Assembly: GCA_023511295.1 (NCBI GenBank)
Contig: JAIMBT010000003.1
Location: 124,001-188,000 of the forward strand
Length of the DNA: 64,000 nucleotides
Source of the DNA: Alicyclobacillus sp.
GTDB taxonomy: Bacteria; Bacillota; Bacilli; Alicyclobacillales; Alicyclobacillaceae
Reading direction: 5' to 3'
Part shown: one piece after another, positions 57,093 to 59,669 of the stretch
Layout of the letters: each line of letters begins with the position of its first letter
Position numbering within the stretch: the stretch's first letter is position 1
Notes under the pieces: model-generated
The model's input: the letters and a program-made list of their open reading frames with translations, nothing else
Databases searched by the model: none
What the model was told of the DNA's origin: nothing
Program-made: the position numbers and the translations under genes

Positions 57093-57779
57093 ATGTTCCA
57101 ATACACCGCACTCGGCGACTCCATTACGGCTGGTGTGGGCGCCACATCCCCGTGCCGGACCTATCCGGCACGCGTGCTGCGGGACGTCCGGAAGCTCCGC
57201 GCTGGCGCCGCGTACGGAGACGTTCTGGCGGAAAGCGGCTGGACGACCGCGGACCTCACGGCCGCCGTCCTCGAAAATCCAGGGAGCTATCTCGCCCGCT
57301 CGAACGTCGTCTCCATCTGGGTTGGCGGAGACGACCTCGTCAACGCGGCACTCGCTGCGCTGAACGCTGGGACTCGGGCGGCGCTCGCGGCCCAGCTCGC
57401 CACACGGCTGCGCGTGCACGAAGCCCAACTCGAGTTTCTCATCCGCCACATTCACCGCGTCAGCCGCGCTGGCATCGTCGTATGTACACAGTACAACCCG
57501 TTCCCCAACACGCCGCTCGCGGCCGAGGCTGTCGAAAAACTGAACCAGGCGACCATTGCCGCTGCACAGCGAGCCGGTGCCGCCGTCGCGCCGGTGGACG
57601 CCTGGTTTGACGGCCATCAGGCACAGTGGATTGCCGGCTACCGAACTGGCCGCCTGCAGGACGCGCTGCGTGGTCCCGCGCCGGTACACCCGAACGACCG
57701 AGGTTGCGCCGCCATTGCCGCCGGGCTGACCCCCATCCTCAGCGGTGTCGCACGCCCGGCCATCAACCTTTATGGATGA
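57093..57779 (+). CDS. SGNH/GDSL-type esterase
   Basis: Serine hydrolase, 228 residues. Block I is ALGDSITAG with the nucleophilic Ser, block II a Gly in VGGDD, block III TQYNP with Asn, and block V PVHPNDRG with Asp/His. There is no signal peptide, so it is cytoplasmic unless exported another way. ATG 57093 follows GGGAGGCGAGATGCC. The substrate (lipid or sugar ester) is unknown. Its last 17 bases overlap the convergent GT51 gene. Confidence 0.9.
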   Translation: MFQYTALGDSITAGVGATSPCRTYPARVLRDVRKLRAGAAYGDVLAESGWTTADLTAAVLENPGSYLARSNVVSIWVGGDDLVNAALAALNAGTRAALAAQLATRLRVHEAQLEFLIRHIHRVSRAGIVVCTQYNPFPNTPLAAEAVEKLNQATIAAAQRAGAAVAPVDAWFDGHQAQWIAGYRTGRLQDALRGPAPVHPNDRGCAAIAAGLTPILSGVARPAINLYG

Positions 57780-58488
57780 GGCGAATCGGTTCCTGGAGGA
57801 TGGCCTGGCCTTCCTCCTGGCTGATGACGCCGTTGTCGACCATGTTGTCCACCACGACGCGCTGCCGTTCGCGTGCCAACTTCAGGGAACGGAACGGATC
57901 ATACAAGGAAGGGGCGTTGGGCAGCCCCGCCAACATCGTTAGCTCCCCAGCGTTTAAGGCACCGGGCGGGCGACCGAAGTACGTCTCTGCGGCGTTGTAC
58001 AGGCCATAGGCCCCGTGGCCAAAGTAGATGACGTTCGCGTACATCGCAAACGTCTCCGGCTTCGTAAACGTATCGTAGACGCCGAGCGCCAGCACGAACT
58101 GCTTGACCTTGCGAATCAGCGTCTTCGACTGATTCAGCAAGGTGTTGTCGACGAGCTGCTCCGTGATGGTCGAACCGCCTTCCACGTACCCGTCCTGCTC
58201 GACGTCCACGAGGATGGATCTCGCCAGCCCAATGGGGTCAAACCCTGGGTCCCATGCGAACCGCCGATCCTCCGTCGACACGACCGCTTCGCGGTACAAC
58301 GCCGGAATCTGGTCGTAGGTCAGCGGGTGAATGTGTTCCGCCTGAATGCGGGCCGAAACCGCAGCCGTCATGTGGGGTCGCAGCGGATAGACGCGGTGAA
58401 AGGCGTAATCCAGCGCACCGGCGAGGACGGCCACCGTGACCGCGACACCAATCACCAGTTTGAGGAATCCACGCGCCAGCCGTCGCAT
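57763..58488 (-). CDS. Monofunctional peptidoglycan glycosyltransferase (GT51)
   Basis: Membrane-anchored glycan-strand polymerase, 241 residues. One N-terminal helix (about 8-28). GT51 motifs in order: STEDRRF (first catalytic Glu), GGSTITEQLV (second Glu), RKVKQF, YANVIYFGHGAYGLYNAAETYFG and LAGLPNAPSLYDP. No transpeptidase domain follows, so it is an MGT-type enzyme. ATG 58488 has GAAGGAGGGAG upstream. The motif spacing in EDRRFAWDPGFD departs from the common EDxxFxxHxG. Confidence 0.9.
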   Translation of the reverse strand: MRRLARGFLKLVIGVAVTVAVLAGALDYAFHRVYPLRPHMTAAVSARIQAEHIHPLTYDQIPALYREAVVSTEDRRFAWDPGFDPIGLARSILVDVEQDGYVEGGSTITEQLVDNTLLNQSKTLIRKVKQFVLALGVYDTFTKPETFAMYANVIYFGHGAYGLYNAAETYFGRPPGALNAGELTMLAGLPNAPSLYDPFRSLKLARERQRVVVDNMVDNGVISQEEGQAILQEPIRLIHKG

Positions 58489-58559
58489 CGACGCTCCCTC
58501 CTTCGTCCGTGCGCCGGCCGCACGGTGCGAGCGCCGAGTCGCCCGCGCCGGATGGCGCA

Positions 58560-58655
58560 CTACCGCTGATGAGGCTGGGAACCAGCCGGTGCCAGCAGGA
58601 ACAGCAACACGAAGATGATGAGAAACACGACGACCCAGCGGTTCAATCCGTTCAC
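58560..58655 (-). CDS. 31-residue single-helix membrane protein
   Basis: GTG 58655 with GGGGGGAG eight bases upstream. Nearly the whole chain is one helix (WVVVFLIIFVLLFLLAPAG) with a short polar tail SQPHQR. It is preceded by a good sigma-K-like promoter (58687-58715), so expression in the mother cell late in sporulation is plausible. It is not a recognised named family; YjcZ-type spore peptides are similar in size and hydrophobicity but have Gly/Tyr-rich ends that this lacks. Confidence 0.55.
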   Translation of the reverse strand: MNGLNRWVVVFLIIFVLLFLLAPAGSQPHQR

Positions 58656-58686
58656 CAATGCGACTCCCCCCCGAAAGGCCTCCGTG

Positions 58687-58715
58687 TAGGCTATGCCGGC
58701 GCCCATTGGGGGGTG
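58687..58715 (-). promoter_or_regulatory. Sigma-K-like promoter
   Basis: Minus strand: CACC (58712-58715), 16 bases, CATAGCCTA (58687-58695). It fits the Bacillus sigma-K consensus mACm, 15-16 bases, CATAnnnTA at every defined position. It lies 32 bases before the 31-residue gene. Confidence 0.5.
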
Positions 58716-58720
58716 AGCGC

Positions 58721-58900
58721 TCAGTGCTTCGGGCGCTCGGGCAGGTTGAACGGGCCGGTTTTCACCACCAGGCGCTGGACGTGGATGGGACCGCGCCGCT
58801 GCGGCCCTCGCCGCCTGCGTTGCAGTTCCACCAGACCGTTCAGAATCAGCCAGCGCTCCGTCATCGTCAACTGCTGCCAGCGCCCTGCTCGAAACATCAT
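58721..58900 (-). CDS. Small basic protein, 59 residues, unknown
   Basis: ATG 58900 has GGGGCGG seven bases upstream. The sequence has a hydrophobic-basic helix (TMTERWLILNGLVELQRRRRG) and is very Arg-rich after it. No family was recognised. It is possibly a genuine small protein because of the ribosome site and position, but the GC-rich sequence makes chance frames common. Confidence 0.4.
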   Translation of the reverse strand: MMFRAGRWQQLTMTERWLILNGLVELQRRRRGPQRRGPIHVQRLVVKTGPFNLPERPKH

Positions 58901-59102
58901 CGTGCATCCGCCCCTTTTGGACAAGGTGTTTACCTCACCCTATGCCGGGGTGCGCGCGGATAGCACGCGACCCGCCCCACCGCGAGGTGGAACGGGCCGG
59001 GGCCGACAGCATGGAAAACCCAACCGGTGCTCGGCCAGACAGCACGCCGGCGATGGGGGCGAGTCGACATCCGCCCGTCACCCTTCCCGGTCCGAGGCAC
59101 CC

Positions 59103-59669
59103 TTACGCCCCAGCGTACACCCAGTGGCCGGTGGCGTCTTTCACCAGCAGAGCCTGCTGGGTCTGCGGCGCACCACCGCCGATCTGCGGGACGCTGAGCG
59201 TGACTTCGTACCCGTTGTCCTTCGGCGTCACGGATACGACCTTGGCGTTCGTCCAGTCGTTCGTGTCCCCGCTCGACTTCATCGACTGGTAGACGTACAC
59301 GCCGTCCTTCTCCGTCACGTGGCCAAACAGGTTGTCGACCTGCGCCTGGGTCATGAAGTCGAGGTAGGTCTGCTCGAGGGACTGCAGGTCAGACTTCGAG
59401 CTCGCCACCACGCTGTACGTCGTCCCCCCGATATCCTTGGTACTCATGTCTCCCAGCATCGATTTCCCGGTGACGAAGTCGTCAATGGCCTGCTGGGCCG
59501 CAGCAGTCACTTGGACGAACTGCGTCTTCATGGCATCGGTGACACCCTGCGAAGAACTGGCGGTGTTGGTCGCGTTGCCCGCGCCCGCGGTGTTGTTGGC
59601 GGTTCCGCACCCAGCCATGAGGCCCGTCAAGCCGATCATCGCCGCGGCGACAAACCAAGTCTTGTTCAC
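59103..59669 (-). CDS. Putative lipoprotein of unknown function
   Basis: 188 residues. A lipobox LMAGC ends at Cys21 after a short signal sequence; a Ser/Thr/Asn/Ala-rich linker follows to about residue 42, then a soluble domain (about 45-188) that includes YSVVASSKSDLQSLEQTYLDFM. The domain recalls IseA/YoeB-type inhibitors of cell-wall hydrolases, but only loosely. GTG 59669 follows GGAGGGG. A good promoter lies upstream. Confidence 0.7.
   Translation of the reverse strand: MNKTWFVAAAMIGLTGLMAGCGTANNTAGAGNATNTASSSQGVTDAMKTQFVQVTAAAQQAIDDFVTGKSMLGDMSTKDIGGTTYSVVASSKSDLQSLEQTYLDFMTQAQVDNLFGHVTEKDGVYVYQSMKSSGDTNDWTNAKVVSVTPKDNGYEVTLSVPQIGGGAPQTQQALLVKDATGHWVYAGA

Follow-up and report, generated by a model that had tools for sequence, protein, structure and literature searches.

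A 31-codon membrane peptide gene of Alicyclobacillus with a conserved sporulation-type promoter and its place in a multicopy peptide family

Tiny peptides of the SscA/YjcZ type are thought to aid coat assembly or spore hydrophobicity in Bacillus, and SscA is presumably YhzE of B. subtilis, itself of YjcZ type. In passages of three papers, SscA is spelled out as 'small spore coat assembly protein A' (PMC13033320), the YjcZ family is placed among the membrane-associated ones in a survey of small proteins (PMC11796252), and B. subtilis yjcZ is assigned to the sigma-K regulon (PMC517825). As described in the last of these passages, B. subtilis promoters read by sigma-K and by sigma-E have the -10 element in common and differ in a single -35 base (sigma-K, C; sigma-E, T), and 14-16 nt separate a 5-nt block from a 10-nt block (PMC517825).

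Here, we describe a gene for a 31-residue peptide in a stretch of Alicyclobacillus DNA of 64,000 bases, which is referred to as the window. The features of the locus are collected in Table 1, and syntenic orthologs of the peptide gene are present in three related genomes (G002, G017, and G024). The gene probably encodes a sigma-K-dependent mother-cell peptide that acts in the manner of YjcZ/SscA, either at the outer membrane of the forespore or at the coat. Late in sporulation, the mother-cell sigma-K RNA polymerase would switch the gene on, and the product of about 31 residues would be directed to the outer forespore membrane or the membrane-coat boundary, a placement that we propose because of its hydrophobic stretch. 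Many similar hydrophobic peptides would be produced alongside it in the mother cell, where they would enter the outer forespore membrane or be packed along the membrane-coat boundary, acting jointly in coat assembly or spore hydrophobicity, with the SscA/YjcZ type as the model. We infer the coat location of the window peptide by analogy with these peptides.

Table 1. Features at the peptide locus (positions in the window)
Feature	Position	Strand	Basis
Monofunctional peptidoglycan glycosyltransferase (Transgly), downstream, possibly co-transcribed	57763..58488	-	PF00912, E 5.6e-52 for 57763-58485
31-codon peptide gene, GTG start, TAG stop, product MNGLNRWVVVFLIIFVLLFLLAPAGSQPHQR	58560..58655	-	ORF list, family matches, purifying selection
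Ribosome-binding site GGGGGGGAG, 8 nt before the GTG	58664..58672	-	Sequence; G-rich site similarly placed in three orthologs
Candidate -10 element CATAGCCTA	58687..58695	-	Pattern search, ortholog identity, family-wide enrichment
Candidate -35 element CACC (sigma-K type, C at the discriminating position)	58712..58715	-	Pattern search and ortholog comparison
Small ORF of about 59 aa, directly upstream of the promoter	58721..58900	-	Conserved in three syntenic orthologs

The family to which the window peptide belongs, as a divergent member, has the core GGYTRWAVVFLIIFVLFFLLVP, from which this copy departs at a few positions (NGLNRWVVVFLIIFVLLFLLAP). The peptide carries the core G[YL]xR[WF]xVVFLIIFVL.FLLVP in a short ORF, by which we delimit the Alicyclobacillales GGYTRW peptide family. 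Used as the only query, the window peptide returned 11 other short paralogs from its own genome. For this genome 14 matches are listed and 12 are counted as members, including two tandem pairs; a related-looking helix (L032, E 0.028) and part of a transporter-like protein (L033, E 0.74) are left out of the count. When the 31-residue query was run against 61 genomes (own, family, order, and class), matches at E <= 10 were obtained in 57, of which 55 had a best E <= 1.3e-5 and several matches each and two were weak (E 0.2 and 0.56). A profile of 17 rows (A1), in which the window peptide is itself a row, finds that peptide at E 8.1e-17. Of 398 class genomes searched, 74 match it at E <= 0.001, and in 58 of these E is 1e-5 or lower. 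Up to 19 candidates were scored per genome, and the 30 genomes listed for the same taxonomic family have between 7 and at least 19 matches each; among 398 genomes drawn across the phylum, E <= 1e-5 was reached in the peptide's own genome only. Among the 80 loci kept of 381, the named relatives are mostly Alicyclobacillus, together with Ferroacidibacillus, Tumebacillus, and Kyrpidia, and there are Bacillota bins as well.

The window peptide and five relatives gave nothing over the cut-offs of Pfam or NCBIfam, and weak matches far below them, to TatA, ComGC, DUF2650, FtsH_ext, and YxzE among others, were set aside as hydrophobic-helix matches. The A. fastidiosus plasmid NZ_CP104069.1 encodes a peptide, annotated as 'hypothetical protein', that is a family member like the window peptide, with 90.9% identity to an own-genome paralog used as the query over 33 of 35 residues (E 0.1); it is of the GGYTRW subfamily, whereas the divergent NGLNRW type is that of the window copy. 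Ten ORFs taken from 9 of the 11 paralog loci were of mixed functions by Pfam, one GerA and one YkuD domain included, and had no common theme. Among the papers listed for Alicyclobacillus together with spore-coat proteomics, small transmembrane proteins, or sporulation transcriptomes, none names the family in its title or abstract opening.

The family and the YjcZ peptides (NCBIfam TIGR01732, tiny_TM_bacill) are alike in being tiny, with a single hydrophobic segment and several copies per genome, in the Gly/Tyr-rich N-terminus of most copies seen, and in a sigma-K-type -10 element just upstream of the ribosome site, which the window gene shares. They differ in the core, which is GGYTRWAVVFLIIFVLFFLLVP in the family and GFALIVVLFILLIIVG in YjcZ. 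The window peptide and five relatives give no hit over the TIGR01732 cut-off, by which measure the window peptide does not qualify as a member, and its own genome has no TIGR01732 match. Among 61 relatives only one exceeded this cut-off, a genome outside the order. An hhalign comparison of the family with TIGR01732 gave a probability of 52% and an E of 1.4e-4, the latter for a single comparison and over only 17 hydrophobic columns. The TIGR01732 cut-off was exceeded in 32 of 101 genomes of the class, none of which is among the 74 family-positive genomes, all 32 being presumed to lie within the 398 searched; this exclusion follows phylogeny and therefore does not represent many independent events. 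By analogy, the family may be said to work like YjcZ, a likeness in the way of working as distinct from membership, and Alicyclobacillus-type spore formers appear to carry it where Bacillus carries YjcZ spore peptides.

A broader picture can be offered tentatively. Alicyclobacillales and some neighbouring lineages may have expanded a family of tiny membrane peptides, numbering from 7 up to at least 19 matches in a genome and under late mother-cell control, that replaces Bacillus YjcZ/SscA and forms the hydrophobic membrane-coat interface of spores. The window copy would then be a divergent branch with its own conserved locus, in which a weak start column (GTG, CTG, TTG, CTG) may hold output low. 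Through this analysis, a multicopy peptide family with no Pfam or NCBIfam match among the tested members joins the probable late sporulation programme of Alicyclobacillus-type spore formers, which include spoilers of acidic food. The findings also point to lineage-specific counterparts of the tiny YjcZ-type peptides, and what tiny peptides do at the coat or membrane becomes testable outside Bacillus.

The promoter assigned to the peptide gene reads CACC-N16-CATAGCCTA on the minus strand at 58715-58687 (full site CACCCCCCAATGGGCGCCGGCATAGCCTA). The first-pass annotation had taken it for a sigma-K consensus site, and the closer count agrees. The pattern MACM-N16-CATANNNTA (mACm-N16-CATAnnnTA) has a single match on both strands of the 64,000 bases, at 58715..58687, with 0.01 expected, and one of 100 shuffled windows contained a match. 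The rarity is that of the combination of -35 element, spacer, and -10 element, because CATANNNTA by itself is not rare (4 in the 64-kb window vs 1.66 expected). The pattern was picked post hoc, and conservation is the better test. In an alignment of the four syntenic copies (window, G002, G017, and G024), GGCATAGCCTA is identical letter for letter in all four, and the spacer and flanks have diverged. The distance from AC to CATA is 17 nt in the window, 16 or 18 nt in G002, 16 nt in G024, and 18 nt in G017, the window site has the C at the -35 position that favours sigma-K, and its -10 element lies 14 nt from the ribosome site. The genome encodes sigma-K-type factors, exceeding the curated cut-off of the sigma-K model TIGR02846 at two places (G000:C22:88083 and G000:C24:105367), a cut-off that was reached by none of 14 control genomes, B. 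subtilis included. One of these two loci may be sigma-E, or the genome may have two sigma-K-like factors. The alignment and the counts support the designation of the site as a conserved mother-cell sporulation-type promoter, and we infer from the consensus match and the conservation that it is read by sigma-K polymerase.

The same element was then counted across the family. A total of 131 members were found, 107 of which remained after upstream regions at least 60% alike were dropped, and 105 of these had a ribosome site. The controls were 586 ORFs of at least 100 codons from the same loci, some of which are not genes because they were picked mechanically. CATANNNTR occurs within 35 nt of the ribosome site in 24/105 family genes vs 16/586 controls (p 1.7e-11), mostly 10-19 nt before that site, and in the next 36 nt upstream in only one of the 105. 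For CATANNNTA near the ribosome site the corresponding counts are 10/105 and 6/586 (p 1.6e-5). When the window gene and two orthologs are removed, CATANNNTR remains in 21/102 (p 1.0e-9) and CATANNNTA in 7/102 (p 0.001). The YjcZ family served as the positive control: 30 TIGR01732 loci yielded 23 upstream regions with a ribosome site, CATANNNTR lies within 35 nt of it in 15 of these and in the next 36 nt in 2, and the comparison of 15/23 with the 586 controls is rough because those controls come from other genomes. TATAAT was found in none of the 105 family upstream regions and in 16 of the 586 controls.

The element is not uniform across the family. The looser CATNNNNTR is found in 53/105 family genes vs 61/586 controls, so that 52 of the 105 upstream regions are without even this form near the ribosome site, and in the peptide's own genome CATANNNTR lies within 110 nt of the match start in 5 of 12 copies. 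Because about half of the family upstream regions lack the loose site and the own genome has CATANNNTR in only 5 of 12 copies, other sigma factors or regulators may serve some copies. The -35 element is weakly marked family-wide (AC-N16-CATANNNTR in 5/105 and AC-N17 in 4/105, with 1/586 controls each), and plain CATA is not enriched in the upstream regions (38/107 vs 36.6 expected from shuffles). A first EM motif run returned the ribosome site preceded by a CATA-like block; when the regions were trimmed at the ribosome site, CATA...TR came first, with a log-likelihood of 156.1 against 152.0 for the next motif. Because the EM motifs are close and the run had no shuffled control, the promoter argument rests on the counted comparison of 24/105 with 16/586. 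The suggestion of an overlooked late-sporulation peptide holds in that the gene is real and has a conserved, family-enriched mother-cell promoter, and its 'outer membrane' could refer only to the outer forespore membrane; the multicopy family and the conserved neighbouring small ORF are additions to the earlier account.

Two further features of the family upstream regions were observed. A second CAT lies about 12 nt downstream of CATA in L095, L031, L103, L143, and others (e.g., CATACTCTG CAGCATG), and it sits in the presumed early transcribed region of many family promoters. The paralogs L005, L007, L008, L015, L016, L020, and partly L027 form a group with a highly conserved non-coding upstream block in common, CCGTATCGCCGGG...CATCATTTCATGCAGTAA, which could be a further promoter for sporulation or else an RNA element.

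The enrichment of CATANNNTR would fit sigma-K and sigma-E alike, and it is conceivable, if unlikely, that the window promoter is read by sigma-E at the middle mother-cell stage or by both factors. The -10 element is common to the two, and 28 of 103 B. subtilis sigma-K genes are given as also sigma-E dependent in a passage of PMC517825. This reading is countered by the -35 AC with the sigma-K-favouring C, which is found at 16-18 nt in all four orthologs.

The sigma-K-dependent peptide proposed here has a second rival in the type I toxins, by which the product would be a small hydrophobic pore-former, present in many copies and held down by an antisense RNA. Gram-positive type I toxin peptides such as TxpA and BsrG, which are named in a passage of PMC6562991, are likewise short, hydrophobic, and present in several copies, and the present family fits this description in size, hydrophobicity, and copy number, as do its two tandem pairs in this genome. 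The alternative was kept because YhzE-family peptides of B. subtilis have been grouped as putative type I toxins, an assignment that was still unconfirmed in that 2019 review (PMC6562991). We regard it as improbable. Unlike these toxins, the window gene has a sporulation-type promoter as its conserved regulatory element, and in the orthologs the gene keeps its position, with housekeeping genes on either side. A sigma-70-like promoter was not seen on either strand at 58400-58950 or around the gene in G002 and G017, so that no antisense promoter of this type was seen in three of the four orthologous regions; the G024 region has two sigma-70-like promoters vs 0.7 expected.

The order kept at the locus is RelA, Dtd, a metallo-beta-lactamase-fold protein, an IseA-like protein, the small ORF, the peptide, the transglycosylase, and a GDSL protein, with the comparison for G017 covering the end of the metallo-beta-lactamase-fold gene through the GDSL gene. 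A third alternative, by which the peptide would serve as leader or partner to the transglycosylase gene lying about 71 nt downstream, is very improbable. The two genes lie on the same strand and are adjacent in G002 and G017 as well. In the window, the scan found no terminator-like site between them and the fold there is no better than shuffles (z -0.50), for which reason they may be co-transcribed. In G002 and G017, by contrast, a strong hairpin with a T-run parts the two genes (z -4.45, with a weak terminator in the pattern scan, and z -4.58 by fold, not listed by that scan, respectively). G024, in which the terminator scan after the peptide found none, keeps the peptide and its promoter with the transglycosylase absent from the locus. 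Moreover, 27 of 30 transglycosylase loci have no upstream family peptide, the remaining three being the window, G002, and G017, and 11 other family copies lie elsewhere in the same genome. The G024 locus, the survey of transglycosylase loci, and the hairpins together disfavour a leader function.

On the other side of the promoter, the ORF at 58721-58900 (MMFRAGRWQQLTMTERWLILNGLVELQRRRRG...) has 57-66% identity across 35-46 aa in the three syntenic genomes and no match in Pfam or NCBIfam. It is a neighbour of the peptide gene, for which a place in the same transcription unit is only possible. Further upstream, 59103-59669 on the minus strand is a lipoprotein-like ORF that matches the PF16800 IseA DL-endopeptidase inhibitor family barely above the cut-off (31.1 bits vs 29.9), and its synteny is kept in the orthologous loci.

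The coding frame of the peptide runs from the GTG at 58655 to 58563 on the minus strand, is followed by TAG at 58562-58560, and consists of 31 codons of hydrophobic character, with a mean hydropathy of 2.84 across residues 8-26. We take the peptide to be little more than a single membrane-spanning helix, to which the window copy adds a short polar C-terminus of its own. The earlier description of a strong ribosome site followed by a GTG that opens a membrane peptide was accurate (GGGGGGGAG, 8 nt before the GTG). The first-pass annotation had also named conservation of the peptide and promoter in relatives as a check and an unconserved reading frame as grounds for refutation. Besides the promoter identity described above, the three syntenic orthologs give pN/pS values of 0.11, 0.23, 0.23, 0.31, 0.40, and 0.44 for the six pairs of four sequences, so that the frame is conserved in 6/6 pairs; in two pairs tried with frames shifted by 1 and 2, the values were 0.79-1.84. 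It is well supported by these comparisons that the peptide is a real, conserved gene under selection. A chance ORF beside a chance promoter, which the short, hydrophobic gene with a non-ATG start and no family model might bring to mind, is ruled out for practical purposes by orthology, synteny, pN/pS, and promoter conservation.

A gene of 31 codons with a non-ATG start is easily missed by gene finders, and a conserved promoter offers a route to such genes. The window frame stays open further upstream as an ORF of 115 aa, a longer protein that is ruled out because G024 and G017 have a TAG in frame, 15 nt ahead of the aligned start; because two of the three orthologs have this stop, only the short form is common to them. 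The peptide lengths at the orthologous locus are 31 aa in the window and 32, 32, and 35 aa in the others. The aligned start column reads GTG in the window, CTG in G017, TTG in G002, and CTG in G024. As alternatives, the window has a TTG one codon upstream, which would give 32 aa, G017 has an ATG two codons upstream that is just 2 nt from its AGGAGG, and G002 and G024 have a GTG three codons upstream that lies inside the G-rich ribosome site. A weak non-ATG start is therefore likely at the orthologous locus.
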